Of a DNA stretch of 64,000 nucleotides, positions 8,630-39,573 are shown in pieces; position 1 is the first letter of the stretch; the number at the start of each line of letters is the position of its first letter. The stretch is taken from contig OW804095.1 in the NCBI GenBank assembly GCA_942159475.1, positions 68,476,773 to 68,540,772 on the forward strand, read 5' to 3'. The notes under the pieces are model-generated. The model saw nothing but the letters and a program-made list of their open reading frames with translations, did not search any database and had not been told where the DNA came from. Position numbers and translations under genes: made by a program. The DNA comes from Sthenelais limicola. Lineage: Eukaryota > Annelida > Polychaeta > Phyllodocida > Sigalionidae.

Positions 8630-8664
8630 GATTTCATTTCGAATACTATCAATCTTTGTATATT

Positions 8665-17855: not shown

Positions 17856-17861
17856 CATAAA
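17856..17861. repeat. Target-site duplication, left (CATAAA)
   Basis: CATAAA directly precedes the element terminus and is repeated exactly at 39568-39573. A 6-bp duplication is the Polinton/Maverick hallmark. Confidence 0.95.
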
Positions 17862-18158
17862 AGTAGTAGGGAGGTACCAGCCATAGTCCTATCAATCGGA
17901 TTAGTGTCCCCTATGTACCCCGAGCTCTCAGCCAATCAGAGAGCTGTGAGCTCGAGCCCTCGGCCAATCAGAGAGCACCCCGCTACGCACCCCGAGCTCT
18001 CTGATTGGCTGAGAGAGAGCCTGGAATGTTTCAAGATTCAAGGAATGCCCATTATTAGACACACGACCCTAGGGTTACACGTATGACCCTAGGGTTAGGC
18101 TCGCTGAGAGCTAACCATAGAGCTACACCTTTGATCCCATAACAACTAACCCTAAGGT
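17862..18158 (+). repeat. Polinton left terminal inverted repeat
   Basis: It begins AGTAGTAGGGAGGTACCAG and matches the reverse complement of 39271-39567 with about ten scattered differences. The outer ~150 bp hold three CCAATCAGAGAGC copies in palindromic arrangement; the inner part is built of CCCTAGGGTTA-like degenerate repeats and a GATCCCATAAC motif. Similarity fades inward after 18158. Confidence 0.93.
17924..18015. repeat. Hairpin-forming inverted repeat inside the left TIR
   Basis: CTCTCAGCCAATCAGAGAGC (17925-17944) is the exact reverse complement of 17996-18015, with a third partial copy (CCAATCAGAGAGC) at 17964-17976. The same structure is present in the right TIR. Each arm includes a CCAAT box. 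Confidence 0.88.
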
Positions 18159-18506
18159 GAGAACTAACCCTAGGGTTACACCTCTAAACCCATGTCACTT
18201 TAAACCCATGACATATGACCTTAGGGCTAGCTCTCACTAGGACTTAACCCTAACGTTAACCCTTAACCCCTCCCCACGGCACAAGACCCTAAGTCTAATC
18301 CCTAAGCCTATCATTTAGAGCTAAGCTCACGTACACAGCCATATGCTTAGTTCTAGCTCTTTAGGATAAAGTTTACTTTAACCTTAACCACAATAAATAT
18401 AGATGAAAACCACACAGAGAAGTGGCAGTTTAAATTTCCCAATATTCCATATAAATAGGAGAATGCGGATTTATTTTAGTTCTAATTTGAACTGCTATGA
18501 GACAAA
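18159..18506. promoter_or_regulatory. Subterminal leader with TATA box
   Basis: After degenerate CCCTAGGGTTA-like repeats, TATAAATAG occurs at 18450-18458, about 57 bp before the first ORF. This is the only clear core promoter upstream of the small membrane protein and PolB, which are separated by six bases. Confidence 0.6.
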
Positions 18507-18770
18507 ATGGAATGCTATACTTTACAAACGACTATATACAGAGAAGCAATAACAGCGATTTTCCCTGTTTTATACGCATACACTCTGGGAATTCTGTTGT
18601 ATGCTATATATAGAGCTTTGACATTTTTGAAATGTCCCAAAAGATTACCACCCTCCAATTCTCTCCAAAATTTACCCAGAGCACCCATCCCCCCTCCGGC
18701 TTCCCCTATATATATTGAAATGGAAGAAGGCTATCTTACTCCATCCAAATGCTCAATAAGCATTGACTGA
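18507..18770 (+). CDS. Small single-pass membrane protein
   Basis: An 87-residue ORF. Residues about 14-41 form a hydrophobic segment suited to one membrane pass, followed by a short basic stretch (KCPKR) and a proline-rich tail (APIPPPASPIYIEME). I do not recognise the family. The start lies about 50 bp after a TATA box, and the stop is only six bases before the PolB start codon. It is therefore either translated from its own short mRNA or is an upstream ORF of the PolB transcript. Small membrane proteins near the termini occur in related elements, but no function can be given. Confidence 0.55.
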   Translation: MECYTLQTTIYREAITAIFPVLYAYTLGILLYAIYRALTFLKCPKRLPPSNSLQNLPRAPIPPPASPIYIEMEEGYLTPSKCSISID

Positions 18771-18776
18771 TTTAAA

Positions 18777-21700
18777 ATGGAGGAAAACTGGGTTAGGCAA
18801 AATTTAAGCGATATTTTGCAATCGTTTACTGACCCCAACGTGCTAATACAATGGGCTCGGAATATTGGATTACAACATGAAAAACCTGTATTGGATCGGT
18901 TATACGATTTAGAATTGAATTCAAAGCTGCAGAAACTTCATACTGCAAGTGAAGTTTTGAATTACGCTATCCCACTTAACATACTATCTCACCAAGCAGT
19001 GCTATCAAGACTACAACAGATTCATTCGGTAAGTTAAATATTTTATAAATCATTTATTTATTTATGTTAATACGTACAACTTTAGATTATGTATAGACAA
19101 TGATGGTTTGTTTTTTTCTCTTGTTTCAGCAATCAACATCTCCCTCCTTATCTCACCCACTCTCAACGCATCCTGCCCCAGGTTCTATATCTAATTCACC
19201 AACAATCACTCACCAAACCCTCAACAAACCCACACCTTCACATTCAATCCCCCAGCATTCCAACATTCCCACTCCTTTTCAGACCAACCCAAACCCGAAT
19301 CCTTTAGGACCGATTTTAGAACACACCAAGTCGGATTCACTCAACGACGCAAATGGATCTATACCTTCAGTCAATGAGCAAGAATGCCTTACGGATTCTC
19401 AGGTAGAAAAAAACTACAACATTATACATAATTTTCTGGATGACTTGACTACCTACTAACGTGTATATTGTTTATGACAATGAATGGTATTTTTAATTTT
19501 AGTGTGACGCGATATGGAGCGAATTTTTTCAAACCCCACCTCCAACCACATCACCCAAACCTAAAACAAATAATATTGAAAATCCTTTACCAACATCCAG
19601 CACCACAGAAAACAATATAACCGTTCCACAGACAGAGAATGAAGATATCAAATTTGTTTGCCCAGTTTGTGGGGTACAATTTTCAAATTCGGAAGAGCAT
19701 AAAAACCACATAAAAAGTTGCAAGAAATTTAAATGCCAATTTTGTAAGAGAGACTACAAAACTTTATCTGGGAAATGTAAACACGAAGCTCGATGCGATA
19801 TTAGAAGACCTTGTACTCATTGCGGATACAAATACACATCAGTTCGTGATAAGATAACCCATGATAATTCTCATTTGAATGCAGAAAAAACGTACAATTG
19901 CAGAGCCTGTAACTCAAAATTTTTAACACGATCACTACTGTTTGAACACCAACAAGCTAGACATAGTATTTCCCCCGAAAATTTATCACCAACTCCCTGG
20001 GTAGAGTCCCCTTTTGATGACAATATTGAAAATGACAGAAAAACTAAAAAGATCTATGAGACAAACAAAAGATTTATTTTAGCCAACCATAAACTAGGCG
20101 ACATTCAGGATCAATACAACTTCCCCACAAATGATTTCTCAGGCGGTGTGGATGAATTTGCGACTCACCTTGAGCGTATATTTGAGTATCAAGATCACTC
20201 ATTTAAAGTTGATGTTTCATTAGGTGTAATACTTCGAAATGAAGAGACAAATGAAATGCGATATTTTGTTCCATACAATAACGTCTCGATTCTTAGCGAA
20301 CCGTTTTATATTTCCAAACATGAAGATCTGGAGAGGTTATATGAGAGATTAATTTCCATAAACCTTCAAACATATATAACTTCGGTACGACCTAATACAA
20401 AATGGAGACCTTGGTTTTTTACAAACATTCTTTATACAGTTACAAGAACTCAATATTTACTTGGACAGGCGGGATTTCTTCCTGATTATGTTCGCCTAAA
20501 GAAGTGTATTCTATCATTTGAGAAAGACCACAAAACAGGCAACCTATACAAGGATAAATTATGTTTATTTAGATGCTTGGCTAAGCATAAGAATAATCAG
20601 TTAACCCTTGGATCTATATACGAACTATATAATCAATGGCGAGCTTTTGTCAATGACCGAGCTATTACCAGGGAGGAACTACCAAGTTCACCAGCTAAAT
20701 ATGAGGGTGTTTCACTTGAACAGATACCACACATTGAAAAATGTTTTGACGTATCTATTTATATCTATGAACTTTTACCTGATGGAAGTGTCACTCTTCG
20801 ATATAAATCATGCACCTCAAATTTAAATGTGATGTATATGAACATATACAAACACCACCTATCCTACATTACAAATTTTAAGACTTATGCTAGAAAATTT
20901 TCTTGTGCAACTTGTGAGAGAGTCTTTAGTGACAAATCAAATTATAACAAGCACATACAAATTTGTGTTAGTAGAACTAAGTACACATATAAATCAGGAT
21001 TTCATTCAACAAAGGGAACAATTTTTGATGAAATGGAGGAATTGGGAATTATTACTGAAAAATCACACTCCCACTTTCCATGGTTTTGTGTTTTTGATTT
21101 TGAAGCTATTCTTGAAAAGATTTTTGAACAAAATTCAGACAAGTTAACTTGGTCTCAAATTCACCGAGCTGTTTCAGTTTCAATTTGCTCTAATGTAGAA
21201 AACTACAAGCACCCAAAATGCTTTGTAAATTCAGATCAAAGAACTCTAGTAGAAGATATGATTTTATACATGCTTGAAATACAAGCAATGACATTATCAT
21301 TAGCTTTGGAAAAATGGAAGGATGCCATTTCAAAACTGGATGAACTTGTAGAGAAATGGAACTCTATCGCAAGCTCTATGAATGAAAAAGAGGAAGAGAA
21401 TAAGGAGAACGAACAGAGGGAGTATCAGGAAGAAGATGAGGAAATGAGGGAGGGAGAGGATGAGGAGGGGGAGTCAGAAGATGGGGAAGAGAAAACCAAA
21501 AAATCCCCCAAAGTAAAAAACTCAGGATCACGCATGCATGATCGCATTAAATCCATTCGAGCCAGGTTTATGACATACATTAACCAACTTCCAGTTTTTG
21601 GCTTTAACTCAGCCAGATATGATATAAATCTGATAAAATCAACACTATTTAAAGTTCTTGATATGAATGAAAAAAATGACAATTACTTTGTTATAAAAAA

Positions 21701-24700
21701 GAACAATGCATACATTAGTATTTCAACTGAAAAACTTAAATTTCTTGATATTTGTCAATTTCTAGCCCCTGGTTCTTCTTATTCAGGTTTTCTGAAAGCT
21801 TTTCACATTAAGGAATCAAAATTTTGGTTTCCATATGAATATCTTGATTCATACGAGAAGTTAAATGACTCTTCAATTCCAAGTCATGAAGCTTTTTATT
21901 CTTCCCTTCGAAACACCAACATTTCACCTGAAGAATACAACCAAGTTTGTTCAGTATGGAAGGAGAAAGATATGAAGACATTGAAAGATCTTCTGATTTT
22001 TTACAATAATCTTGATGTTGGTCCTTTTGTTAGTGCTATAGAAAAACTACAAGCTTTTTACTTTAATAAAGGTATTGATGTTTTTAAACTGGCTGTATCA
22101 GTACCAGGTATTGCTCGGAGAATGCTTTTTGCATCAGCAGATAAAGATACATTTTTCCCATTGATTGGTGGTCATGATGAGGATTTGTATAAAACATTCA
22201 AGCAAAACATAACAGGGGGACCCTCCATTATTTTTCATCGCCATCACAAAGTCAATGAAACAAAAATTAGAGGTAAAAAGATATGCAAAAAAATACTAGG
22301 TTTGGATGCTAATGCATTATACCTATGGTCCCTGGGTCAAAAACTCCCAACTGGTCCATACATTCGACGTTTTGTCGAGCATGATTTTTCCCCAAAAAAA
22401 CACACAATTCACATGCTTATGTTTTTGTGGTTGGAGTGGGTGAGAAAAACTGAGAAGATTGACATCATCCACAAACTCAACAGAGGTAGGGAAGTGAGAA
22501 TTGGAGCATATTTGACAGATGGATTCTGCCCGATATCAAACACCGCCTATGAAGTGAGTTTTAGGGTAGTCATGATATTTAGTCGTAATTTTCTTATAGT
22601 AAAATTGTATGTTTGTATGCATATGCATATACACGTATTATATATATATTTATTTATTTGTTTTAGTTTAATGGATGCTACTTCCATGGCTGCTCATGTC
22701 AAAAGGACAAGATGGATCCGAAACTTTGGAAAATTAGAAGACATAATACAGCAGAAAAAGAGAAAAACATAAAACAGTTGGGCTATAACCTCGTTACTAT
22801 GCGAGAGTGTGACTTTCGAAAGGAGATGCAATCAAGCATTGAGATCAAACAACTTATGCGTGAACACTTTCCTTCATTCTATCTAAAGCATCCACATAAA
22901 GTAACAGAGGATGAGATAATTGAGGCAGTGAAGAACAACCTCCTGTTTGGATCCGTTGAGGTTCGGATTGAGGTACCAGAAACCTGGGCTCCCGGTTATG
23001 AGCGGAAACTTCCACCCAGGGAATATTTTGCTGAAATGGCACCTTTGTTTTGCACAAATGACATTGAACATAAGGATATTGGCTCACACATGCAAAAGCA
23101 CGTTTTAGACTTTAATCTTTCCACAAAACCCCGCAGGCTTTTGATAAGTGCTCTTTATGCGGATAAGGTTTTACTGGCTACTCCATTACTCAAATGGTAC
23201 TTGGATCATGGAATGCGCGTAACCAAAGTATATCAAGTTGTTGAGTTTGTGCCAAAAGCATGCTTTAAAAGTTTTGAAAATGAAGTTTCGAACGCGAGAC
23301 GGGATGGGGATAAAGAAGGCTTAAGTGTCACTGCAGAAACAATGAAGCTTGTAGGAAATTCAGGTTATGGAGGCATTATAATGGCAAAGGAACACCACCA
23401 AAATGTGACATACCACTCTTGTAGAACAGAAGCACAAAAAAAAGTGAACCAACCATCATTTAGAAAACTTTCAGAATTGGGATCGAACCATTATGAGATT
23501 GAAAGTGTGAAAAATAAAATAACATTAGACCTTCCAATCTATTTGGGATATTTTGTTCTGCAATATGCCAAACTTAGAATGTTGCAGTTTTACTATGACT
23601 GCTTGGATTTTTATGCAGATCGAAGCGACTATGAATATATTGAGATGGATACAGGTAATTGAAACTTACTTTCATAATATTATTTAAAATGATTAATACT
23701 TCTTTAACAGACACTGAATATGCATTTATCTTTTTTTATTTCAGACAGCGCATATTTTGCAATATCTGAGAACGAATTAGAAGACATAATCCACCCGTTA
23801 TTGAAGCAGCAATACTTGAGTGAAATATATGACCTATGCGGACAGGATGACAAATCGGTATGGTTTCCACGTCGCTGCTGTGAAAGATGTGCCAAATTCT
23901 GCAAGAGAACTCCTGGGTTATTCAAAAAGGAAGCTGAGGGAATTGAAATGATAGCTCTATCCAGTAAAACATATATTTTGAAGGAAAACAACACCGGTGG
24001 GTGTAAATTGAGCTGTAAGGGAGTGAATAAACGTCGACTTGAAGACCCATTTGAAAAATACGAGAGTGTACTGAAAACTAAGAGAGCTCGCTTAGGTACA
24101 AATGTCGGATTTCGTCAGAGAAATAACACCATCTATACATATAAACAGGACAGATCAGGTTTTTCCTATTTATACATAAAAAGGAAAGTAATGGAAGATG
24201 GAATATCCACTAGACCATTGGATGTTGTACTAAATCCCTGGCAAAACATACCTGCATATTATGTGTTTAGTGATAATCACCCATTCTCGCAATCATATCC
24301 ATGTCAAATTGAATGTTTAGGTTGGATTTTTAACTCATCAGCACAGTTGTATTTTTACAAAATGGCAATTGCAATGAATGAAATGGAAACAGCGTGTGAT
24401 ATATTACTGTTTACAAGCATAATCCAATGTCAAACAAAAATGAAACCAATGCTATCAAGACCTGATTACATTGAAAACAGAGAACTAGTTATGTTAGAGG
24501 TTTTGCTAATTAAACTGCAACAAGTTCCCAGTCTTTTATCTACACTTTTAGAAACTAACACACTTCCGATTGTTTACGCCAATCGAGCAGATTCATATTG
24601 GTCATCAGGACTGAGCGAGAGAGTAGTAACCATAACTAAACCTAGCGAGTTTAGGGGTTATAATAAACTAGGAAAAATCTGGGAGGAGGTGAGAGAAAGC

Positions 24701-24712
24701 GTAATTCTATGA
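18777..24712 (+). CDS. Protein-primed family B DNA polymerase with C-terminal NADAR-like domain (5 exons)
   Basis: Exons 18777-19028, 19130-19402, 19503-22553, 22667-23654 and 23745-24712 have GT-AG borders and keep frame throughout (1,843 residues). The N-terminal part is helical and proline-rich. Four C2H2-like fingers follow (19641-19960), then an OTU-like stretch (LCLFRCLA near 20563, HHLSYI near 20851) and a further finger (20899-20970). Exonuclease motifs are FDFEA (about residue 706), FNSARYD (about 875) and YNNLDV (about 1008). Polymerase motifs are LDANALY (about 1108), GNSGYGG (about 1421), DTDS (about 1519, split by the last intron) and KLSCKG. The last ~150 residues look like NADAR: DSYWSSGL followed by GYNKLGKIWEEVR. 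The enzyme should replicate the element from a protein primer. An AATAAA lies at 24746. The exact N terminus is the least certain part. Confidence 0.88.
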
Positions 24713-25322: not shown

Positions 25323-25967
25323 ATGACAGACGTTATTGAAGTACCCACTTGTTCCTTTTGTAGTCCCTGCACACTCTCCGTTTCAGGCACAACAGGTGCT
25401 GGTAAGACCGAATTCGTTAAACGACTTATAAAGCATAAGAATGTTATGTTTGAACACCCTCCTAAAGAGATTTTTTACTTTTACGGGGTATGGCAAGACT
25501 CTTTTGAAACTATGACCTCTGAAGTGAATTTTAAAGAAGGACTACCGGAGAATGTAAACACCAGCGCAGATCATCGCTTGTTCATTATTGACGATCAAAT
25601 GCAAGATGTTGTAAAGTCACCAGCTATGGAAAGGTTATTCACTCGAGAGAGTCACCACAAAAATGTATCAGTTATTTTTATCACCCAAAATATTTTTTGT
25701 CAGGGTCGCCACGCTAGAGATATTGCGTTAAATTGTCACTACACAGCCCTTTTTAGAAACCCTCGAGATATAAGTCAAATTGGAATGTTGGGAAGACAGA
25801 TTGGAATGGGAAACTCGCTTCTGGAAGCATATAAATTTTGCGTGAGTATGCCTTTTGGATACTTGCTTTTGGACCTGTCCCCACGCAACTACCTACCAGA
25901 TCTCAGACTGAAAACTCGAATATTTCCAGGAGAAGACTGCATCGCATTCATAACTAAAAATGGCTAG
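25323..25967 (+). CDS. A32-like (FtsK/HerA) genome packaging ATPase
   Basis: A 214-residue protein with Walker A GTTGAGKT at residues 22-29, Walker B LFIIDD at 86-91 and a sensor-like IFITQN motif further on. This is the pattern and length of the packaging ATPases of Polintons, adintoviruses and poxvirus A32. It should pump the linear genome into the capsid. It heads the structural block behind a TATA box at 25280, and its last bases overlap the BIR gene start by 8 bp. No missing key residue was seen. Confidence 0.93.
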   Translation: MTDVIEVPTCSFCSPCTLSVSGTTGAGKTEFVKRLIKHKNVMFEHPPKEIFYFYGVWQDSFETMTSEVNFKEGLPENVNTSADHRLFIIDDQMQDVVKSPAMERLFTRESHHKNVSVIFITQNIFCQGRHARDIALNCHYTALFRNPRDISQIGMLGRQIGMGNSLLEAYKFCVSMPFGYLLLDLSPRNYLPDLRLKTRIFPGEDCIAFITKNG

Positions 25968-26706
25968 TAGATTCCCATTATTTGCCGATCCTGCTGTGAG
26001 ATTACGCACGTTTGCTGATTACAAACATGGTGAGAGAATTTTGGATTTATCTCAACAGGGATTATTTTACACTGGAGGTGGTGACGGCGTTCAATGCTTT
26101 CATTGCGGTATCATAATACACTCATGGGAAGAGGACGATGTTGTGAGTGTGGAGCATTTTAAACACTCCCCAAAGTGTTCAGTAGCTCAAAAAATGCTAT
26201 CCAAATCTGAGGATATTGCACGCACCCTTTCTATTATTCTAGAAAGACAAGAAAATCTTCGTCAATCAATATCGGTGTCATTTCCCATAACAGCTAACTG
26301 TAATTCTTTGAAAAAAAAGAACCACATCAAGTTGAGAACTAAAATGAACACTCTACTTACTAGGATGTTTAAAAATTCATTTGAATGCACAAAAAAGAAA
26401 AGAGAACCTGAGGATGAGAGTGATGAGAGCACGGATGAAGATGAATGCGGGGAAGATTACGATGACATATCCGATTATCTGTGCATGTCTCCAAAAATGA
26501 TTACCACTAGAGCATTTGATTGCTCATGTATGCGATATCACAAGGGATCCACAACCGCTATTCATGGATCCACCCCAAACCTACTTGACTTTGTTGATCA
26601 AGAAGAAAAAGAAGATAAAAACGATATTGTGGAACTACCCCTGTCAGAACCTGCATACACTCCAAAGCTTACGGATTTGTGTCTTTCATGTCTTCAAAAA
26701 AAGTGA
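25960..26706 (+). CDS. BIR-domain (IAP-like) protein
   Basis: A 248-residue protein. The N-terminal ~80 residues are one BIR domain: RLRTFADY, then GLFYTGGGDGVQCFHCG, then HSWEEDD and EHFKHSPKC. The zinc ligands are C46, C49, H66 and C73, with the family's CxxC-x16-H-x6-C spacing. The rest is a basic segment, an acidic stretch (EDESDESTDEDE) and a Cys-containing tail without a RING finger. BIR proteins bind caspases or IAP-binding peptides and can block apoptosis; that role here is inferred. It lies between the ATPase and capsid-associated genes and overlaps the ATPase by 8 bp, so it is built into the structural transcription unit. It may have been captured from a host or another virus. Confidence 0.92.
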   Translation: MASRFPLFADPAVRLRTFADYKHGERILDLSQQGLFYTGGGDGVQCFHCGIIIHSWEEDDVVSVEHFKHSPKCSVAQKMLSKSEDIARTLSIILERQENLRQSISVSFPITANCNSLKKKNHIKLRTKMNTLLTRMFKNSFECTKKKREPEDESDESTDEDECGEDYDDISDYLCMSPKMITTRAFDCSCMRYHKGSTTAIHGSTPNLLDFVDQEEKEDKNDIVELPLSEPAYTPKLTDLCLSCLQKK

Positions 26707-26724
26707 AAACCCAAACCGCCTAGT

Positions 26725-27051
26725 ATGGGCGCTGTTGAGAAGAATGTTGAATTCTTAAAGCTTTTGATCTCAACCCCAAACCGTAAACAAGCGGAGGCTC
26801 TACTGGAAACAATTTCCGCAAGTCAAATTAAAGCAATATCGGAATTATTTTTACATTTACCCAACTTGAGACTACCATCTGAAGCTCAGAAGCTCGTTGT
26901 TCGCCGACAAAAGTTACTGACTCGAATTTCGAGTAAAAAAAATTCAGACTCTGAAAAAAGGAAACTAATTCAGCGCTATAGACGAATTTTGTTGGAGTTG
27001 TTCTCAGCTATATCCACTCCACTACATAAGGTGTTGAAAAAACTAAAATGA
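26725..27051 (+). CDS. Small helical basic protein, Polinton pX-like candidate
   Basis: A 108-residue, lysine/arginine-rich, mostly helical protein. Its pattern (NRKQAEALL early, then KLVVRRQKLLTRISSKK and a late KRKLIQRYRRILLELF) resembles a short conserved ORF found in many Polintons and adintoviruses, sometimes likened to adenovirus core protein X. That link rests on memory of the pattern and needs a profile search. It starts 18 bp after the BIR gene; a TAG directly before the ATG sits in a weak splice-acceptor context. The stop overlaps the next gene's ATG (ATGA). Confidence 0.55.
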   Translation: MGAVEKNVEFLKLLISTPNRKQAEALLETISASQIKAISELFLHLPNLRLPSEAQKLVVRRQKLLTRISSKKNSDSEKRKLIQRYRRILLELFSAISTPLHKVLKKLK

Positions 27052-27494
27052 CAACCAAAAAAGTTGTTCTTGTACCCTATGAGCGCTACTTGAGATATCA
27101 ACAGGAACACTCGAGTATCCTCTCCTCAAACTCATCTCTAAACGCTTTGGATCCTCCACAGCTAAAAAAAAAATTTTCTATTAATCGATCTCAAAGACAG
27201 CAATCAGAGACATTACCAACTCCAACACCCTCATTGGTAGACGCGTCGGATACACAGCACACGCCGACAAAACCCGCACCGCCCCCGCCGCGAGCGTTGC
27301 GGAACGACTTGGCCCAGGCCGCGCCTTCGGTACCTATTCAAGAATCTTTAAAAAGGAAAGTAAAAAAGAAAAAGAAGCAAAATAAAGTTAATCTTTCTTC
27401 ACTCCCTCCACCACCACCACCACCACCGGGAATACCAGCAGGGAAAAGAAAACCCTCTAATAGTTTGAGTTGGTTAGAACTCTGGGGAAAATAA
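27048..27494 (+). CDS. Proline-rich, lysine-rich virion-associated protein (candidate)
   Basis: A 148-residue protein that begins with a K-VVLVPYERYLRY-type N terminus, a pattern I associate with a conserved small Polinton protein next to the pX-like gene. A low-complexity region (prolines, a KRKVKKKKK cluster, then eight prolines) follows, and the end is LSWLELWGK. A local GC-rich patch (27270-27330) encodes the APPPPRALR segment and differs in base composition from its surroundings. It overlaps the previous ORF by 4 bp and the integrase by 1 bp (TAATG). Function unknown; a minor capsid or DNA-binding role is possible. Confidence 0.55.
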   Translation: MTTKKVVLVPYERYLRYQQEHSSILSSNSSLNALDPPQLKKKFSINRSQRQQSETLPTPTPSLVDASDTQHTPTKPAPPPPRALRNDLAQAAPSVPIQESLKRKVKKKKKQNKVNLSSLPPPPPPPPGIPAGKRKPSNSLSWLELWGK

Positions 27495-29250: not shown

Positions 29251-29252
29251 AA

Positions 29253-29564: not shown

Positions 29565-30970
29565 TGGCCCTATTTGTAAATGAACAAGCCGAGCATGGAT
29601 ATGAAGCTAGACTCTCTCTCTTTTCAATTCCACCTGTAGAAGTTGGAATCGAGCGGGTTTACTACAAAGAATTTCGCCCAGTAGGGGGTGTGTCGGGGCA
29701 ATCTATTTTGGAGTTTGATGTGGTTAACAACGGACCTGATTATATAGACCTATCTCGAGCAGAGTTACAGATAGAAGTAAAGATTCTCAACGACCAAAAT
29801 AAAGACATTGGCGCGGCGGATAAAGTTTCCCTAATTAACTTACCAGTATGTACCATTTTCCGACAAATGGACTTATCCATTCAAAGCCAGGTGGTGACAA
29901 GCTCAATTGGAAATAACTTTGCGTACAAATCCATTCTAGACAACCTTTTAGAAAATGGGCTTAGTGACGCAACCAGCTGGCTTGAGGTTGGAGGGTTTGC
30001 AAAGGATACTTCTGGAAATATGGACTCGCATGATCCCTCTTCAGCAACTAACGTTGGACTGGCCAAGCGAGCTAAATTTACTGAGTCGGGTAAGAAAAAA
30101 CAGCTGAGAACCCGCCTTATGATGGATTTTGCTCGTCAAGAAAAACCACTAATTCATGGAGTACCTGTCAACTTAAAATTGTATCCTGCCTTAGATAAGT
30201 TTAGGTTGATCTATGCAGATACTGGAGAAACCTATAGTGCTGAAGAAATAAAAACTCCCCCGAAAAAGAAAAGATCCAGAAAGGGCACCCAACCTACCAC
30301 CACAACCACTCCGACCGCCACTTCAAAGTATTATACCGTGGATATCACATCTGCTGTTTTGTTTGTGCCCATGCTAAAGATAAATCCTTCGCTTCTCACA
30401 AAGCATAATGACATCATCAAAAATCAAATGGCTATGTATCCATTCACTAAAAGCGATATACGTGTGTTCAATGTTCCAGCTTCAAGTCAGGTGTGGACCT
30501 ATGATAATATCTTTCAGGATATGGTTCCTAAAAAACTAATCATCGGAATGGTGGAGTCTAAAGCATACGCTGGTAATCCAGAGCTTAACCCGTTTAACTT
30601 CCAGCACTTCGGGTTAAGTTATCTCTCATTCAGTATTAACGGGCAAATTGTTACAGGACAGGCCCTACAACCAAACTTCGACAAAGATCATTACACTCAT
30701 GAGTTTGCAAATCTATTCAAGTGGTTAACAGATTCTAAGCGACAGCCACCAAATATTAACTTTAAGGATTTTAAACAGGGCTACGCACTTTTTGTAATTG
30801 ATATGGAAAAATCAAAGGGTGAAGAATTTTCAACGCCTGTTGTAAAAGGTCAAACTGAGCTTGCTATTAGATTTAAAAATCAACTGACTAAAAATGTTAC
30901 TCTGATTGCTTATGGGTTGTTTGATGGTCTTGTTAGAATCGATCAGGCAAGAAATGTTATTGTAGAGTAA
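29564..30970 (+). CDS. Major capsid protein, double jelly roll
   Basis: A 468-residue protein at the end of the structural block. β-rich segments include VGIERVYYKEFRPVG near the start and LEFDVVNNGPDYIDL. The second half has FNVPASSQVWTYDNIF, NPFNFQHFGLSYLSFSING and the terminal TLIAYGLFDG strand, patterns typical of Polinton hexon-like capsid proteins. A low-complexity K/T-rich loop (about residues 230-250) probably lies at a surface turn. It should form the trimeric capsomers. Two polyA signals follow (31119 and 31205). Confidence 0.88.
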   Translation: MALFVNEQAEHGYEARLSLFSIPPVEVGIERVYYKEFRPVGGVSGQSILEFDVVNNGPDYIDLSRAELQIEVKILNDQNKDIGAADKVSLINLPVCTIFRQMDLSIQSQVVTSSIGNNFAYKSILDNLLENGLSDATSWLEVGGFAKDTSGNMDSHDPSSATNVGLAKRAKFTESGKKKQLRTRLMMDFARQEKPLIHGVPVNLKLYPALDKFRLIYADTGETYSAEEIKTPPKKKRSRKGTQPTTTTTPTATSKYYTVDITSAVLFVPMLKINPSLLTKHNDIIKNQMAMYPFTKSDIRVFNVPASSQVWTYDNIFQDMVPKKLIIGMVESKAYAGNPELNPFNFQHFGLSYLSFSINGQIVTGQALQPNFDKDHYTHEFANLFKWLTDSKRQPPNINFKDFKQGYALFVIDMEKSKGEEFSTPVVKGQTELAIRFKNQLTKNVTLIAYGLFDGLVRIDQARNVIVE

Positions 30971-31298
30971 AATTAGTAACACAAGATTTTGCGAGATTGC
31001 ATAAAAAAGAGAAATGTTACTGTAGAGTAAAAAAAAATAATCACTAATATGTTTAGAAATCATATCCAATAACTGATTAGATAGTTGATATATCCTTTGT
31101 CTGTTTTATTTATAGCTCAATAAACATTAATTTGAGGGGGTAAGGTATTCAGATAGATAGAACAAATAAATATGTATGCTTATGTGTATGTAATAATTGT
31201 GAAAAATAAAGAAAACTGAATAAAAAACTGTCTTTTTATGTTTATTTACTCTATAATTAGCTTCCAATGGAATTCCAAACTTCCATTATTTATGGAGT
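30971..31298. terminator. Convergent 3' region with polyA signals on both strands
   Basis: AATAAA occurs on the plus strand at 31119-31124 and 31205-31210, after the capsid gene, and on the minus strand at 31246-31241, after the glycoprotein gene. A short partial repeat of the MCP end (GAAATGTTA...GTAGAGTAA) is seen at 31011-31030. Confidence 0.7.
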
Positions 31299-31970
31299 TC
31301 ATATGTCACTTGTTAATGCTTCATTAAATGTGCTCATTTCATACAAGTAATTACCACTGCTGCTATTTCTAGATATCTTTTTCATAGCGATTGAATACAC
31401 CACAATAGCTAAAAGTATACAGCAGACAAAAAGAAATGCAGCAATAACACTAGCCAAAGTTATAATTATTATTCTGTGTGAGTGCTGAACGGAGCTCTCA
31501 GTCGAGTTTAATCCCTCAGTAGGTAATGTATCAGTAAACTCAAAATGCGGCGATGTAATATCCAAAACGGGACCTGGTGAGTCGGTGGCGACATCATCAA
31601 CGGTGGCGCTCTTGGTAGTATCTGTAGTGGTGGATTCACCACCCTTAGGGCATGAGTTATTGATAACAGTTATGTTCAATGGATTAAAAATCAAAGAGCT
31701 GCAATTAAATTCCAATTTTGAGTTCCTGATATCGATAATTTCCAGTTTTGAGAATGTTGCCAGATACCGCCAGTTAAGGTTCTTGATAAAGCAGTCTCTC
31801 CAGTCAAATAATATAAAATTATCCGGAAATGCAAACCTTTGAGGTTCTGTATCCCTGCACACTAAAACTGGTGGATTTGAACAGGCGCACTCCCATTCAC
31901 ATCCATTTTCTTGTGAAAAATATCCGTTAAAAGCCATTAAAAAAAGAACAAGAAATAATAATCCAGTCAT
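31299..31970 (-). CDS. Type I membrane glycoprotein A with LRR-like ectodomain
   Basis: A 223-residue single-exon ORF. It has a signal peptide (residues 1-19), a Cys cluster of LRRNT type (CEWECACSNPPVLVC), a leucine-rich-like stretch (LEIIDIRNS), NCSS and NNSC sites for N-glycosylation, and a Thr/Ser-rich stalk. A transmembrane helix (about 171-195) and a short tail with GNYLYEM follow. It is divergently transcribed from a similar membrane protein at 32301, with a 330-bp shared upstream region. The two look like a duplicated pair. Known Polinton core sets lack such proteins. An attachment, envelope or cell-surface decoy role is inference. Confidence 0.8.
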   Translation of the reverse strand: MTGLLFLVLFLMAFNGYFSQENGCEWECACSNPPVLVCRDTEPQRFAFPDNFILFDWRDCFIKNLNWRYLATFSKLEIIDIRNSKLEFNCSSLIFNPLNITVINNSCPKGGESTTTDTTKSATVDDVATDSPGPVLDITSPHFEFTDTLPTEGLNSTESSVQHSHRIIIITLASVIAAFLFVCCILLAIVVYSIAMKKISRNSSSGNYLYEMSTFNEALTSDI

Positions 31971-32300
31971 TTTTCAAGCTAAGTGTATCCAGCGGTCGTG
32001 TGTGAGTGTGTGTGCATTTATCTATAACCTTTCTTAGTCAATATTAGCGGATGGAATGCGGTGGGAATGAATTCTATCGATTCTAATATAGCGGGATTTA
32101 TTTGATAAGCACGCATGCTTTGATTAATATTTTCCATAAGCTAGATAACAGCCTCTGAATAAAATAATCTTTATGAATCGGTAAGAATATGACTGAGTGA
32201 ACGGGTCAGGAGTTCACCTGTTGGAGGAACAATGAATTCATTGGGACCCTTGGCTAAAAATAGCAATTTATTACCCTGGAGACTCTTTGACTAGAGGGAA
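31971..32300. promoter_or_regulatory. Bidirectional promoter region between the glycoprotein genes
   Basis: 330 bp separates two divergent start codons. It contains AT-rich candidates such as CTAAAAATAG near 32254 (plus) and GTTATAGATAAA on the minus strand near 32025, but no perfect TATA box. Shared control of the pair is likely from geometry. Confidence 0.45.
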
Positions 32301-34549
32301 GTGAAACTTGGAACGGACAGCATGGCCACCCCACTCGCTCTGCTTATTTTACTATTTGGCTCTGTCGCAAGTCAAGAGTTGATTTGCGATATTTGCTTTT
32401 GTGATAAATCACTTGCTAGATGCAATGATCTTATTGCGAATGAAGCCTTTTTTGAGGACCTGGTGCCCAATGGAAGGATTGATAGACTGGACCTGCGTGG
32501 ATGCACGATGGTGGGCTTAAAGTCCGAAGAGGTTATCTTTCGGGCCTTCCCACAACTGATAACCTTGGACGTCTCATACAATATGGATAACGAAAACTGC
32601 TACTTGGATCAAACATTATTTCCCAAAATTCTTGTGGAGACTGGTTGTATTTCTTCTTCTTCAACAAGTGAACAGACCACCGCTAAACAAATGAGAACGA
32701 CGGAATTGGTATCAACTAGGCAGACATCAACCAAGCAGATCACAACATCGGATTCAACCACAAATCGACGCACACAAACCGACCAAGTGACAACCCCTCA
32801 ATATTCCTCCACAAAATTTATTCAAATCACAACCACCACCACTACCGATTCCCGGTTTGTTTCATATACCCACTATCAGTTTAATTTGACCATCCTTATC
32901 AGCGTGACAATATCCATTCCAATCTCCATAGCCGTGGCATCAGCGGTTATCTATCTAATTCGGTGGAGGCTGCGGAGATCGAGACTGGAAGAACTCAACG
33001 CGACGCAGCTAACAGATGTTAGTATTGACGGTAATGTAAGTGTAAAGTTTAACTTATAAATATTTACAATGAAGCTTATTTTCCTCCCTCAAATAATAAT
33101 AATAATAACCATTCTGAAAATATACACATAGACCTATTTTAATTAATATAGGGACAGAGAAGAGAGGGAAATAGCGAGGATGAGGATGAGGATGAAATAC
33201 AACCAGCCATTGAACCCGGTCATGAGGAGCCTAAATTACCTCCTCCCATTGAACCAAGGCGCGAGCAAGACAGACAAAATGATGTAAGTACGCATACCCA
33301 ATTATAATAAAAACTGGGAGTTATCGATTGGGGATTCACTCAATACAATCCCACCTAGTCCCGGCTCTTGTTGATTAATATTGGTTTAATAAAGTTCAAA
33401 ATTTAAATTAATATAGGATGAGAGAGACGCCAATGGTGATGAACAGATCGAAGAAGGGGAAGGTCTTCCATTGCCGCAGCAAAATGTTGTAAGTGTGCAT
33501 TCACCATTAATATAATAAAGGTTGTAAGTGTGCATTCACCATTAATATAATAAAGTTTAGTTCAAATTATTCTAATTCTAAATTATCTATATAACGGTGT
33601 GTGTGTGTAATTTAATTGTTATAGAACACAGACGGGGATGAAGATGACGATCGCGAACAAGAGGACAATAGTGATAATGATGAGATAGTGGGGGTAGCGC
33701 CATTTAATGAAGATGAGGTAAATATTGATCTAATACCTATATCTATTGAGTTAGTCTTATACTTACGGGAGAGTTGGAGGATCCTCAAGAGGAATTATCC
33801 AAGGTGACTATGATAATTCCACAAAGGTAACTAGCATTTTACGTGGGTATTAACATAATCTTTATAATATTTTTATAGCCCGCAGCGCAGGAACTAGACC
33901 CTAACGAGGATCCAAACGAGGAGGTAGACCCTGTGGTGGTGCAAGTTGCTGAGGAGGTGATTGAGGAGGCAGCACCAATTAATGAAGATGAGGTAAATAT
34001 TAATCTAATTCCTATAGCTATTGAGCTAGTCTAACACCTAAGAAAGAGGTGGAGGACGCTCAAGTGGGATTATCCCAGGTAATTGTGATAATTCCACAAA
34101 GGTAAATAACATTTTACGTGGGTATTAACATAATCTTAATAATATTCTCATAGCCCGCCGCGCCTGTACCTAATGAGGAACCAATCGAGGATGTAGTGCC
34201 TGAGATGGGTCAAGATGAGGCAGCTCCTGATCAAAATCAAGTTGGAAGGGTTCCAAACGCTGAAAATGGAGGACAAGAGGTAAATATATATATATATATA
34301 TATATATCAATACAGTTAATAAAGCCAATGTAAATAGTAATAGAAAAATGTTCCCAAGTTGTGATAATTCCATGAAGGTAAATACCATTCTCACGTGAGT
34401 ATTAACATAATATTCTTATAGCGTGACGTACCTGAGGAGAATCAAGTCCCTGAAGCTGTTCCAATCAATCCTGAAGCTGAGGTAAATAGAAAAATAATTC
34501 CCCAATAGGAAACGTATATAGTAGCGCTCAATATCAGTTAAATTTATCT

Positions 34550-34582
<33 letters not shown>

Positions 34583-34895
34583 CGAAATAGCCTGCTAGAC
34601 AACCCAGAGCCGGGGGTAATAGGATTGAAGCGTGAGTTTGTTCTATTATTCACTCAATCTCTCTCTCTCTCTCTCTCACTCTTGTTAGAGATGTAATATA
34701 GAGTCGTAATATTTGTTCTAGGTAAGAGTTCTCATCCAACGAAAGTCAGCACAATAAATTTAGCTCACACACACACACACATACTTTCAATTAGTTGTTA
34801 AATAACTCCTTTATACTTTTAGCGAGGAAAGACTTGTTATGACCAGAAGAGGGCGAGTTGTGATACCACCTAAAAGATTTGGTTTCGACAATTGA
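32301..34895 (+). CDS. Type I membrane glycoprotein B with modular acidic tail (9 exons)
   Basis: Exon 1 (32301-33035) encodes a signal peptide (a second Met at 32322 may be the true start), a Cys motif (CDICFCDKSLARC), one or two LRR-like repeats (RIDRLDLRGC, FPQLITLDVSYN), a Ser/Thr stalk, a transmembrane helix and RWRLRRSRLEE. Further exons are 33152-33283, 33417-33488, 33625-33717, 33879-33992, 34154-34279, 34422-34481, 34591-34631 and 34823-34895. All splice sites are GT-AG and the frame continues to a stop at 34893 (481 residues). Exons 2-7 are phase 0 and encode Glu/Asp/Pro-rich modules; exons 4-6 and their introns are tandem duplicates. The end is RRGRVVIPPKRFGFDN. Without splicing, exon 1 would end at a stop at 33059. 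The large tail probably binds cytosolic partners. Function unknown. Confidence 0.72.
33486..33555. repeat. Perfect 35-bp tandem duplication across a splice donor
   Basis: Two identical 35-bp copies (33486-33520 and 33521-33555) start GTTGTAAGTG, so the exon-3 donor of glycoprotein B exists twice. Use of the second donor would add 35 bases and change frame. Confidence 0.9.
33700..34430. repeat. Tandem duplication of exon-plus-intron units
   Basis: Three successive units of about 275-290 bp share an exon end (AATGAAGATGAG|GTAAAT in the first two), an intron block with GTGATAATTCCA and AAGGTAA, and an acceptor preceded by TGGGTATTAACATAATC or a close variant (third unit AGTATTAACATAATA). The third unit has a TA-repeat insertion. 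Confidence 0.85.
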
Positions 34896-34935
34896 AAAAG
34901 GAAGGTGAGCAAGTTACATACATACATACATACAA
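34556..34935. repeat. Cluster of simple repeats in introns
   Basis: A CT-repeat (34556-34582), a second CT patch (34661-34678), CA-repeats (34773-34784) and CATA-repeats (34916-34934) lie in and after the last introns of glycoprotein B. The first forms the polypyrimidine tract before exon 8. Confidence 0.8.
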
Positions 34936-35206
34936 CCGTTTCTAAATTTACAGCAATTAGGAGTCTATTATGAAAAAGATTGAGTAAGTTAGCCATACAT
35001 ACGAACATTTCTAAATTTAAACTAGTTCGAATTTTTACATTTTCAGGAAGACGAGGATCGATAGTTAGTTAGTTACTAACTTTAGAGTTGTGTAGTGTTT
35101 GTTATTCTTTGTAAAGCGTATATAAGGGCAGCCAAATTTTATTCTTTCCCTCATACTTGTTCAATCACTCATACGTGCTGTTTCGAGTGTATTTACTGTT
35201 GCTGAT
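34896..35206. promoter_or_regulatory. Spliced 3'UTR candidate and TATA box of the next gene
   Basis: A donor (GAAG|GTGAGC at 34905) and an acceptor (TTTTCAG ending 35046) could form a 3'UTR intron of glycoprotein B. TATATAAG at 35119-35126 lies about 80 bp before the next start codon. Confidence 0.5.
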
Positions 35207-37931
35207 ATGGAAGCTGCCCTTCGTAAAGCGTGAGTTATACTTAAGAACTTTTCTTATTTCTTGTCTTATTTTTTTTGATTAATGTACTTGCTTATTGTGG
35301 TTCTAGTAAAATGTTGTTTTACAATTAATATATTGAGATCAAAATTTACTTTCTTATGTATTGGATTTTATAATCAAGGTTTTCCCTTAGATAAAATATG
35401 GGATCAAAGATATAGTATTAGATCTAGCTCTCAGTGAGTCTAAATATTGAGTTCAAAATTTACTTTCTTATGTATTTGATTTTATAATCAAGGTTTTCCC
35501 TTAGATAAAATATGGGATCAACGATATAGTATTAGATCTAGCTCTCAGTGAGTCTAAATATTGAGTTCAAAATTTGCTTTCTTTCTTATACATCGGGCTT
35601 TCCCTTATTGCGAAGAAAAAATGTTCTCGTTTCTTCTAAATTATGTTGGAATTGAATGATTCTAGTAAAAGGTTGTTTTACAATTATTTATGCGATATTG
35701 TATTCAAGCGAGTTAAATATCTAGTAATAAATACAAATGAACAACAACTTGATATATTTTTTTTATTAATTCTATGCATGCAGTGAGCGTCGTCGACGTG
35801 ACAAAATAAGAACTTCAATGGCTTCAATACAGCGCACTGTGTTGAAACTTAGCAACGCCATGTGCGATCTGGAAAAATTGGTGTTTTCCACTTTACCGGA
35901 AAAGGTATATTCCAAATTATGTTAAAATCGGGAGATGGTTAGCAATATAGATTACACCATTTATCAATGTATATATATATATATATATGTGTATTACACC
36001 ACTAACTCGAGTACATTTATTTGTACCAGATTTTAAAAATTAAGTCTAATCCATAAAGAATTTACCAATATAATTCACACTAGTTGGTTATGGTTTATAA
36101 TAAGGATCTAAATAGCGGCCCCACCTATGGGGAGTAAAACGAACCATTCTATGGTATACGCTAGATGGTGTCGCCACCTATATGTAGTAGTAGTACAATA
36201 CACTTTTCTAATAGACTCGATCACTTGGTTTACACAGCTTTACATTCTCTCATGACCGTGTATAGTGGTCTGTAAGTTGGACTGAAAGTGTTCTTCATTG
36301 GAACCTAGGTTTGGAAAGTCCATTAACTGATCAGACATTCGATTGGTAGCAGAGGATAGTTGATCTTGTATTTCTTGCTCGCTAAAGTTGTATAGTGTAA
36401 TATGATCCTCCGTTTGAGTGGCTGCGTTCTTTGTTTGAGGTTTGAGAGAATCAGAGTTTTCTCCAACGTACTTGCGTAGTCTTTTGTGTTCCTCGGTTGA
36501 TAGGTTAAATGTGCGAGACCTATAATATATATATGTATAAACACGCTTTTAGAAATTATACTTAAAAGTTACTGATTGTGTACACGTATGTGTGCATACA
36601 CAAAATAAATCAATTCAAATCATCGACCTTCTTTCTAAATGTAAGTATCTCAATATCTTGTGAATATAGGCATACTCTAAACTACTAGTAATTACTAACT
36701 TGCTCACTAACTAAATAGTAATATTGATCTAGTAATACTAATAATAATAATGTTTAACTTACCAGTCTTTCATTCCATAGTCGTCATAGGCAGCATGAGA
36801 GATATAGCGTGTGTTCTTGAAGTCGATAAGTGTGATAATCCATTCTTCTCCGAATGGAATTGGAGAGTCTAACTCGAATTTAGTTAGTTGTCCGGAAAAC
36901 TCCAATAGATCTTTGGGAACTGTGACTGATCTTGTTGATTTGTCAGCTCTACTTTTTACAAGTATAAGATCTTTTTTTGAAATATTGCACGATTGCAAAG
37001 TGGTATTTACACTTAAGTCAATATAGATAGCCTCCATGGTAACTTAGACGTGCTTGCGTTAGGTGTGCTTGCGTTAGTATACAATCAGCGAGTGTTAGAG
37101 AACCATTTAGTTTGCTGGTTTATATACATAATACCTCACTAATCTGTGCATTCCAATCATATTTCAGAATGAGGAGGTTTCGATTGGTACCAAAACTCGA
37201 TCCAAAAAACCGTTGAGCGATGGAGGGTCATCACCCGATCAACCACCTGCTCCACCACCCTCCCCTGTATCCCCTCCCGAACTTCCTCTTGATCTGTCTA
37301 TGAAGGTCAAGAGAAAGAGTAGGAAGGGAACTCCTAAAAAAACGTCAGATATTCTGGTTAAAACCCCTACTAGTAGTATTATTCCGACTCATTATAAACC
37401 AACTTCTAGGGCCCCTCGAGCGCCCAAAACAAAAGCTCGAGTATTTAAAAATAGCTCTTCAACGCCCTCAGCCTCCGACAAACTGAGGCAGTTTCTACAT
37501 AACAAACTAATGTCAGAGGCTGAGGGTGTATTCCCTACATCTTCCTCCTTTACCAGTCCTTCGTACACCGAGGTGGTTGGCTATAGCGTTCCACATCTCA
37601 ATGTAAGTTCTGTCTATAAATACATTTTACATCCTATCTAAATATATATATATATATATCTAAGATGTTTTTCCATCTATATTAAACGACTAGCAATATC
37701 TATCTCTAAGTGTAGTTTTTCCCTGCTGTAATTTAATTTTCTTTCTCAATTTCTATGTATATATCCACTCTCTATAATGCGAGAATAATTGTTATATTAA
37801 ACAACATCTATCTTATATTCTTACAGACAATGGATCTAACGCAAGAGCTCGCGTTGGGTTCTATAACCTTTTCCCCTCTGGCCAACGATGTGGAACAAGA
37901 TGCAGTCGATAAAATGCTGGGTATCCAGTAG
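35207..37931 (+). CDS. Basic regulator candidate with PLDLS (CtBP-type) motif (4 exons)
   Basis: Exons 35207-35229, 35784-35904, 37168-37602 and 37827-37931 have GT-AG borders and continuous frame (227 residues). Exon 2 encodes AERRRRDKIRTSM followed by a heptad-like helix, resembling the basic region and first helix of bHLH proteins; a second helix is not evident. Exon 3 starts with a proline-rich stretch, then PLDLS at residues 88-92 directly followed by the basic KVKRKSRK, a layout like the CtBP-binding site plus nuclear signal of adenovirus E1A. The rest is Ser/Pro-rich and basic, with an acidic C terminus. A TATA box lies at 35119 and AATAAA at 37965. A nuclear transcriptional role is inferred from short motifs. 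Intron 2 contains an antisense gene. Confidence 0.65.
35331..35582. repeat. 114-bp tandem repeat in intron 1, related to the TIR
   Basis: Two copies (35331-35444 and 35445-35558) and the start of a third differ at few positions. Each contains ATGGGATCAAAGATATAG and TAGCTCTCAGTGAGTCTAA, which match in order a segment of the right TIR (39290-39344). Confidence 0.88.
36240..37037 (-). CDS. Nested antisense two-exon gene, unknown function
   Basis: Exon 1 (37037-36763) and exon 2 (36519-36240) on the minus strand join in frame (TG|G codon) through GT-AG borders to give 184 residues. Exon 1 is β-rich with IDLSVNTTLQS, RSVTVPKDLLEFSG and PFGEEWIITLIDF; exon 2 is hydrophilic (HKRLRKYVGENSDS, ATQTEDHITLY). 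TATATAA on the minus strand (37126-37120) lies about 83 bp upstream of the start. The whole gene sits inside intron 2 (35905-37167) of the plus-strand PLDLS gene. I do not recognise a family. Confidence 0.65.
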
Positions 37932-38006
37932 AGCGTTAAATTTATAATGTACTATAAAAGATTGAATAAAACGTGCAAATATATTTTTTGAATCATGTTA
38001 TTTATC

Positions 38007-38837
38007 TTACTCACCCTTTATTAAAGGTACTTCTAAGCTATACTTTTCAAAGTCTCTGCAGCATTCACATCGAATACATATCCCATTTCCTTCTTTGTGG
38101 TCATCTTTGTAATCGGACTGTATAAAAATATGTTCTTTACCAATATCGCTACAGCATACGTCTCCAAACCAGTGCACGTTATCATTAATATCAATTTTCA
38201 TCCCGCAATAGCAAGGTATAAACTTTACCCCTTCATCTTTAATAAGTTCTCGCCATCTCGAAAAAAATCTGTAAGCTATAAAGTCGTCTGGAAACTTTTC
38301 ATTTCGTTGACCGTACATAACTGCAAATGTGCTATGTTTACACCTTGTTCCATAAATACCCAAAACCGGTAATATAGGAGCTGGTGAGGTCACTTGTCGA
38401 GGTCTTGTGGTGCAACGTTTGCTTTTATCAAAATAGAAAAAAGCTAGATAAAACGGTTCTTCCTCTGTAAATGCTGCATATCTAAATATAAATCCCTTTG
38501 GAATTTGTATTCCCTTTGTGTCGTTGCACAGCATACAAGCCAACACGTGTTTATAATGTCTAGCAAAATCTGAAGCTGCTTGCTCGGTTATAAAGTCAAA
38601 TTGTTTCGCTGCAAAACAAACTTTTAGTCCTATTTCCGAAACATTCATCCATTTAGTAAAGTCGGTGTTGATCGTGTATGTATCTTTATCCTGTTCAATC
38701 GCTAGTGAGTATTTGTCCAATTCATTGCATTGTAAAAACTGTAAAAGATAAAGTAGCGTTAGCTCCGGGTTTTCGTCGGCAATTTTCCTCTGCTTAGCTC
38801 TTAATTTCAATAACCGCTTCAGTCTATATTTTCCCAT
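38007..38837 (-). CDS. Cys-rich protein of unknown function
   Basis: A 276-residue single-exon ORF next to the right TIR. The N terminus is strongly basic (KYRLKRLLKLRAKQRK). The middle is mixed α/β, and the C-terminal third has paired cysteines and histidines (CYCGM, HWFGDVCC, CIRCECC) that could bind zinc. I do not recognise the family; it has no adenain catalytic pattern. It converges with the PLDLS gene, with 75 bp between their stops. Confidence 0.7.
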   Translation of the reverse strand: MGKYRLKRLLKLRAKQRKIADENPELTLLYLLQFLQCNELDKYSLAIEQDKDTYTINTDFTKWMNVSEIGLKVCFAAKQFDFITEQAASDFARHYKHVLACMLCNDTKGIQIPKGFIFRYAAFTEEEPFYLAFFYFDKSKRCTTRPRQVTSPAPILPVLGIYGTRCKHSTFAVMYGQRNEKFPDDFIAYRFFSRWRELIKDEGVKFIPCYCGMKIDINDNVHWFGDVCCSDIGKEHIFIQSDYKDDHKEGNGICIRCECCRDFEKYSLEVPLIKGE

Positions 38838-39270
38838 GTCGACTCAGAGTTTGTTCAAATAGTAAATTTCAACGGTTATTAAAAAAATAATCCTCCAATA
38901 GTGCGTATCAACAACTGGTCGTAAAGTATCAACTACTGTTCAGAACTACTACCACTACTCAGTTATATGTACCTTCCAACTCATAAACTATTTCAGGAAT
39001 TAGGGATGTTCTAACTATAGCTTACTCAGTTTAAGTGTTAGGGTCAAACGTGTATAACCTTAGGAAGAGTGTCTACGGTTAAAGGTATAAGCTTAAAATC
39101 GTTCTCAGTGAGGTCAAAGGATCATGTATCTAAGAATAAGTACATTTTCGGGAGAGGGGGTAAAGGTATAACTCTGTGGTTATGTAAACCTATCTAACAT
39201 TAGATTAATCTAAGGGTTATTTCTCAGTCAGTGTAACCTTAGGGTCATGTGTTATGGGATCAAAGGTATA
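38838..39270. promoter_or_regulatory. Right subterminal region
   Basis: Upstream sequence for the minus-strand Cys-rich gene, passing into degenerate repeats (GGATCAAAGGTATAACCTTAGGG, TCTCAGTGAG) that resemble the inner TIR. No clear TATA box was seen. Confidence 0.5.
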
Positions 39271-39567
39271 ACCTTAGGGTTATGTGTTATGGGATCAAAG
39301 GTATAGCCCTAGGGTTAGCTCTCAGTGAGTCTAACCCTAGGGTCATGCGTGTAACCCTAGGGTCGTGTGTCTAATAATGGACATTCCTTGAATCTTGAAA
39401 CATTCCAGGCTCTCTCTCAGCCAATCAGAGAGCTCGGGGTGCGTAGCGGGGTGCTCTCTGATTGGCTGAGGGCTCGAGCTCACAGCTCTCTGATTGGCTG
39501 AGAGCTCGGGGTACATAGGGGACACTAATCCGATTGATAGGACTATGGCTGGTACCTCCCTACTACT
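39271..39567 (-). repeat. Polinton right terminal inverted repeat
   Basis: The reverse complement of the left TIR with about ten differences, ending CTACTACT at 39567. It includes the same CCAAT-box palindrome (near 39414-39505). Confidence 0.93.
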
Positions 39568-39573
39568 CATAAA
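39568..39573. repeat. Target-site duplication, right (CATAAA)
   Basis: An exact repeat of the six bases before the left terminus. Confidence 0.95.

Follow-up and report, generated by a model that had tools for sequence, protein, structure and literature searches.

Polintons, or Mavericks, have been described in vertebrates as elements of 12.7-24.6 kb that are flanked by a 6-bp target-site duplication, carry the end motif (AGT)2//(ACT)2, and encode PolB, a packaging ATPase, an integrase, a minor capsid protein, a PW-like protein and the major capsid protein (MCP) in that order, together with accessory regions and a protease after the MCP gene; intact elements have intronless open reading frames (ORFs) (PMC8097293, in the part consulted). 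The adintoviruses combine a PolB that has an OTU-like region with a hexon-type capsid protein, an rve integrase bearing a chromodomain, and anti-apoptotic and short-motif ("Oncoid") genes (PMC11071296, also consulted in part). Whether the Polintons of animals should be seen as live viruses or as transposons remains open. Here we examine an element from the annelid Sthenelais limicola (Sigalionidae) that lies at 17862-39567 of a 64,000-nucleotide stretch, hereafter the window, which is C2:68476773-68540772 (contig OW804095.1, assembly GCA_942159475.1) of a 1,130,627,326-bp genome in 161 contigs. We put at about 85% the probability that this is a Polinton (Maverick; adintovirus-like) that entered its site recently, in an amplification burst; it is ordinary in kind and in an unusually good state. 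This reading is carried by the element's ends, the target-site duplications, the near-identical copies elsewhere in the genome, selection on the coding frames, the fold of the capsid protein and the fold of a NADAR domain at the end of PolB.

The element body, 21.7 kb long, is flanked by perfect copies of CATAAA, and its boundaries are as follows.

17856-17861, no strand: left target-site duplication CATAAA, directly outside AGTAGT
17862-18158, plus strand: left terminal inverted repeat (TIR), starting AGTAGT
39271-39567, minus strand: right TIR, ending ACTACT, placed by alignment to the left TIR
39568-39573, no strand: right target-site duplication CATAAA, directly outside ACTACT

The left TIR is identical to the reverse complement of the right one at 287/297 positions, with no gaps. 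A 6-bp duplication around TIRs with AGT/ACT ends is what is expected of a Polinton, and the size falls inside the vertebrate range. The earlier note on this DNA had proposed a Polinton with a perfect CATAAA duplication and clean ends; the identification is supported, and its coordinates proved exact to the base.

That note had also called for a search for further copies. A DNA search of the genome with the left TIR gave at least 27 matches, and paired ends give seven full-length copies, the window's included: one each on contigs C1, C3 and C5 and two each on C2 and C9. The six others have the same ends as the window copy, and each has its own perfect 6-bp duplication (TATAAA, TGTAGC, ACTTTT, CTCTCC, TATGTT and TGTCAT). 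Two internally deleted, TIR-only derivatives, of 2,210 bp (L019:1001-3210, duplication GTGACG) and 410 bp (L020:1001-1410, duplication CATATT, read from the flanks), are likewise perfectly duplicated, so that nine insertions show nine different perfect 6-bp duplications. Because six other full-length copies share the ends and have distinct duplications, the element is not a chance arrangement, and nine independent insertions with intact junctions disfavour a chimeric assembly. Duplicated TIR-only derivatives are as expected for mobilisation in trans. The two can also be described as Polinton derivatives resembling miniature inverted-repeat transposable elements. Older material surrounds four other TIR matches: a C2 copy (about 98-99% identical in the core, lacking the left 1.7 kb), the right part of a copy on C5, and two C1 fragments.

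The six other full-length copies differ from the window by 13, 13, 22, 27, 31 and 130 substitutions. Counted over 21,255 shared columns, changes private to one copy number 8 in the window, 5 in C9a, 5 in C2b, 10 in C5, 12 in C3, 15 in C1 and 117 in C9b, and few sites are shared (5 in C5 and C1, 5 in other groupings), so the relationships are nearly those of a star with one outlier, C9b. The window's private change of 0.04% (8 substitutions) is what supports a recent insertion, to which no date is attached because a host rate is lacking. The TIR identity of about 97% given earlier is correct as a figure and fails as a measure of age: compared with the window's left TIR, the left TIRs of the seven copies are 98-100% and the right TIRs 96-97% identical, so the left/right mismatches are common to the family and older than the insertions. 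TIR divergence is thereby ruled out as an insertion clock.

The PolB gene and the core genes that follow it all lie on one strand, unlike those of the vertebrate elements in the part of PMC8097293 consulted.

18777-24712, plus strand: protein-primed PolB gene in several frames with GT...AG boundaries; candidate exons, picked by eye and never joined (the first two assigned by eye alone), at 18777-19028, 19130-19402, 19503-22553, 22667-23654 and 23745-24712
20565-20867, plus strand: OTU-like region of PolB, with Cys in LFRC (20565-20576) and His in HHLSY (20853-20867)
24245-24709, plus strand: C-terminal NADAR domain of PolB (residues 180-334 of frame 23708-24709)
25323-25967, plus strand: A32/FtsK-type packaging ATPase, with Walker A at 25386-25409 and Walker B at 25581-25595
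25960-26706, plus strand: single-BIR, IAP-like protein (PF00653, E=4e-16)
26725-27051, plus strand: conserved open 108-aa frame, perhaps PM-like by position, with no Pfam or NCBIfam family match
27048-27494, plus strand: open proline/lysine-rich 148-aa frame, perhaps PZ-like by position, with no Pfam or NCBIfam family match
27470-28849, plus strand: retrovirus-type integrase with a C-terminal chromodomain (Chromo E=2e-10, rve E=1.7e-6)
28846-29250, plus strand: putative minor (penton-type) capsid protein, 134 aa, by position and size only; no Pfam, PHROGs or NCBIfam family match
29223-29564, plus strand: open frame for a basic 113-aa protein in PW-like position, with no Pfam or NCBIfam family match
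29564-30970, plus strand: MCP with a double jelly roll, by its capsid fold

PolB, ATPase, integrase, minor capsid, PW-like and MCP genes thus stand in the vertebrate order. The frame breaks in PolB are taken as introns rather than lesions because GT...AG stands at their boundaries, whereas intact vertebrate elements are intronless. A BIR gene between the ATPase and the next core frame and a NADAR domain on PolB are further differences from the vertebrate elements in the same part of that source. The OTU-like Cys and His motifs resemble the vOTU domain of PMC11071308 by eye, with no profile behind the likeness. Although the Pox_A32 match of the ATPase (20.9 bits, E=2.7e-4) lies below the cut-off of 22.8, its Walker motifs are present and it qualifies as A32-type. 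In the integrase, the rve match (28.7 bits against a cut-off of 32.6) and an NCBIfam IS481 match are below cut-off; the acidic residues were located, and both the retrovirus-type core and the rve-plus-chromodomain architecture were recognised. At E<=1e-6 the BIR protein matched 43 distinct PDB sequences, for which every name listed was IAP or BIR, and its CCHC zinc site is present (CFHC and H...C located). No RING domain was found in it among Pfam matches at E<=1; a RING is present in many IAPs, not all. The double jelly roll was recognised by fold; an MCP profile gave no match among PDB sequences at E<=10, and a scan of IMG/VR with the MCP found no relative. PHROGs gave nothing convincing for 10 frames, and an Rfam scan found nothing. 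Like the adintoviruses in the part of PMC11071296 consulted, the element has a capsid protein that is hexon-type by its fold, an rve integrase with a chromodomain, candidate anti-apoptotic and short-motif genes and, by eye, OTU-like motifs in PolB. NADAR does not appear in that part, and the putative penton here has only 134 aa.

All 19 frames examined are open in the window, which agrees with the earlier description of an undamaged copy, and the count of about 15 open genes given there is roughly borne out by 16 ORFs of at least 100 aa overlapping 17000-40500. At sites changed only in C9b, 30 synonymous and 30 nonsynonymous changes were counted (30/60, against 24% synonymous expected, p=2.7e-5), and coding positions changed less (60/13,260) than the rest (57/8,017). 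The MCP has 7 synonymous and 0 nonsynonymous changes among the seven full-length copies. When the older C2 copy is compared, the synonymous/nonsynonymous counts are 10/4 for the MCP, 10/7 for the integrase and 14/15 for the large PolB exon, all at p<0.01; this copy itself has frame indels in the MCP and a stop in the integrase, and in the older copies generally several genes, integrase and MCP included, are broken by stops or frame indels. These counts support the view that the family was recently under purifying selection in the lineage that transmits it, while inserted copies decay.

If the parts work as their likenesses suggest, PolB would use protein priming to copy the linear element, with its own N-terminal part as the terminal protein, which the OTU-like protease would free; the chromodomain integrase would insert the DNA between its TIRs at a target cut with a stagger of 6 bp; and the MCP, putative penton and ATPase may package it. 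In the infected cell, the BIR protein and a right-arm gene with a PxDLS motif probably act on cell death and on transcription; two membrane proteins probably act at the cell or particle surface.

Several observations weigh against this picture. Five of the six other full-length copies have lesions in the examined frames, and only one copy lies within this window. The selection signal among the six young copies is weak (15 synonymous, 22 nonsynonymous; 15/37, p=0.033), and purifying selection shows that the genes were needed in the transmitting lineage, which is no proof of particle formation. The introns and exons are candidate assignments, and expression is putative. Finally, Pfam on 20 frames, NCBIfam on 10 and motif scans all failed to find a Ulp1/adenain-type protease, at a sensitivity too low to rule out a diverged one; at the site after the MCP where vertebrate Mavericks carry it (PMC8097293, part consulted), the next ORF is a membrane-protein frame on the opposite strand. 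The "full structural gene set" of the earlier note is therefore not supported: MCP and packaging ATPase are seen, the protease is not. Its worry that all copies might share the same damage is answered by one copy free of stops and frame changes in the frames examined and by lesions that differ among the other five (BIR in C5; PolB, integrase and a small frame in C1; integrase in C9a; the 108-aa frame in C3; several in C9b).

That the copies are an artefact of duplicated contigs or haplotypes would be very surprising: they do differ little, and the evidence is that of the assembly itself, but flanks and 6-bp duplication differ for each copy, and the copies are spread over several chromosome-sized contigs. 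A more serious alternative, which we nevertheless think unlikely, is that the element now lives as a transposon, amplifying in cells without particles, with its capsid genes as passengers. TIR-only deletion derivatives moved in trans, the missing protease and the confinement of the copies to one genome all fit such a life, whereas an MCP among the most constrained frames and a putative penton unchanged in six full-length copies and in the older C2 copy do not. A recently inserted Polinton remains our preferred reading. The question can be tested in the host, whose chromosome-scale genome holds nearly identical copies at different sites, capsid genes under constraint and derivatives reduced to the TIRs.

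The tail of PolB, an unexpected addition related to enzymes that strip ADP-ribose from DNA, belongs to the YbiA/NADAR family by Pfam match, sequence match and fold (PDB 8bau, 2b3w; PMC11543638 and PMC11125620, in the parts consulted); unlike other family members compared there, it is fused to a DNA polymerase and lacks the catalytic acid. Other proteins join PolB and NADAR: P0001, P0002 and P0051 align over 96-98% of the query piece, while most of the 56 matches align over about half of it. The tail is not universal, since among 10 matches scanned with Pfam P0004, P0018, P0029 and P0006 had no NADAR match, P0003 reached only E=0.037, and P0055 and P0056 were below cut-off. Hydrolysis by NADAR proteins requires an acid in the last strand, according to the part of PMC11543638 consulted; in 8bau and YbiA it is a Glu eight residues before a Trp. 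The window's tail has Tyr at -8 and no acid from -12 to -6, so that neither Glu, Asp nor the His of phage proteins occupies the place, and the acid is also missing in P0001, P0051, P0055 and P0056 and, by alignment, in P0002. The exception in this comparison is P0006, which has Asp at -8 and no Pfam match. For the first-strand Glu (E43) the phmmer alignment shows Ala, a change that alone cost the E. coli enzyme little in vitro (PMC11543638, same part), and the place of the Lys is ambiguous.

One could suppose that the tail actively erases ADP-ribosylation from guanine and shields element DNA from a host ADP-ribosyltransferase. The replacement of the required acid, its absence in the five related tails and the Ala at E43 weaken that idea of a plain eraser and make it improbable. 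Because the fold is kept and the acid needed in tested NADARs is gone, we take the domain to be probably a module that binds ADP-ribose or plays a structural part: hydrolysis is unlikely and binding possible, and binding without hydrolysis is the prediction that follows from the missing acid. We would go further only very tentatively, to a branch of animal Polintons with an ADP-ribose-sensing polymerase whose tail reads ADP-ribosylated guanine or free ADP-ribose; if true, such a PolB would detect or pass host DNA ADP-ribosylation or a PARP response during copying. PolB-NADAR proteins on several unrelated contigs tie a viral replication enzyme to the ADP-ribosylation of DNA. We found no description of Polinton polymerases that carry, across several lineages, a tail derived from NADAR and altered in its catalytic residues: no paper joining NADAR and polinton turned up in the open literature searched (subscription papers lie outside that scope), and the word NADAR is absent from the text of PMC11071308 (a PolB domain analysis), PMC12721341 and PMC10120064. 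The helicase-PolB fusions of polinton-like viruses similarly join a replication polymerase to a further domain; there an SF1 helicase occupies the N-terminus (PMC12721341, part consulted), here NADAR the C-terminus. An IMG/VR scan with the NADAR piece found no relative.

The right arm carries accessory cargo, as had been suggested.

31299-31970, minus strand: membrane protein 1, with a signal-like start, a Cys-rich, LRR-like ectodomain (by eye) and one transmembrane-like stretch (hydropathy)
32322-33035, plus strand: first exon of membrane protein 2, with a signal-like start, an LRR-like, Ser/Thr-rich ectodomain (by eye) and one transmembrane-like stretch (hydropathy)
33152-34481, plus strand: six candidate Asp/Glu-rich exons picked by eye, at 33152-33283, 33417-33488, 33625-33717, 33879-33992, 34154-34279 and 34422-34481
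35207-37931, plus strand: candidate spliced regulatory gene with PLDLSMK (37285-37305) and a TATA-like site at about 35119; candidate exons by eye at 35207-35229, 35784-35904, 37168-37602 and 37827-37931
36240-37039, minus strand: two small open frames, perhaps two exons of one gene, with no family match above cut-off
38007-38837, minus strand: open frame for a 276-aa orphan with an LxCxE motif and a late Cys/His cluster

Neither the spliced appearance of these genes nor the NADAR tail, the further copies or a BIR protein within the core set had figured in the earlier note. Pfam found no LRR in the two membrane proteins, between which no clear relationship shows (E=0.041). Constraint is seen on membrane protein 2 (43 synonymous, 32 nonsynonymous changes against a C1 fragment, p=2.7e-8); selection on membrane protein 1 is mixed (p=0.46, 0.31 and 0.039 across comparisons). 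Each Asp/Glu-rich candidate exon is open, divisible by 3 and placed between AG and GT. The candidate exon at 35784 has an HLH match at E=0.029 only, below the Pfam cut-off. The three diverged copies with full coverage of PLDLSMK (C9b, C2, C5) all keep it, a fourth covering part, and selection on its exon is mixed (p=0.21, 0.10, 0.016). Adenovirus E1A-type early proteins have a PxDLS motif followed by basic residues, as does this apparently spliced gene; the likeness is one short motif with no Pfam match, and the resemblance of the right arm to adenovirus early genes would be a lead, not homology. LxCxE is kept in 4/4 diverged copies that cover it; a motif of five residues can occur by chance. 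None of 223 candidates proved to be a relative of the 276-aa frame at E<=1e-3, and a PDB sequence search with this frame and with membrane protein 2 gave nothing significant. Selection on the 276-aa frame is mixed (p=0.21, 1.0 and 0.003), with 10 synonymous and 8 nonsynonymous changes and no indel against one older copy (p=0.003) and 1 and 6 against another.

In the older copies, the right-arm candidate exons (33036-37931; L021, L022, L023, L027) diverge about 2-6 times faster than the stretches between them, for which we have no explanation: 48/1257 against 26/1946 in C2 (p=9e-6), 54/1256 against 37/1938 in C5 (p=1e-4) and 48/404 against 4/224 in the C1 fragment (p=3e-6), with 16/1257 against 14/1949 in the nearest copy, C9b (p=0.13). 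Synonymous changes in these exons are not in deficit (7/8, 14/32, 18/33 and 19/24 synonymous/nonsynonymous). The donor-like word GT[AG]AGT occurs 17 times on the plus and 3 times on the minus strand of 30971-39264, against 5 and 8 in reversed-sequence controls, and a 114-bp tandem repeat (2.2 copies, 97% alike) lies at 35330-35583. Elsewhere in the window, a 915-aa open frame at 5915-8662 (minus strand) looks by eye like a non-LTR retrotransposon endonuclease/reverse transcriptase, and frames at 61380-62915 (minus strand) look by eye like exons of a fibrinogen-related kind, as would be in keeping with an animal host.
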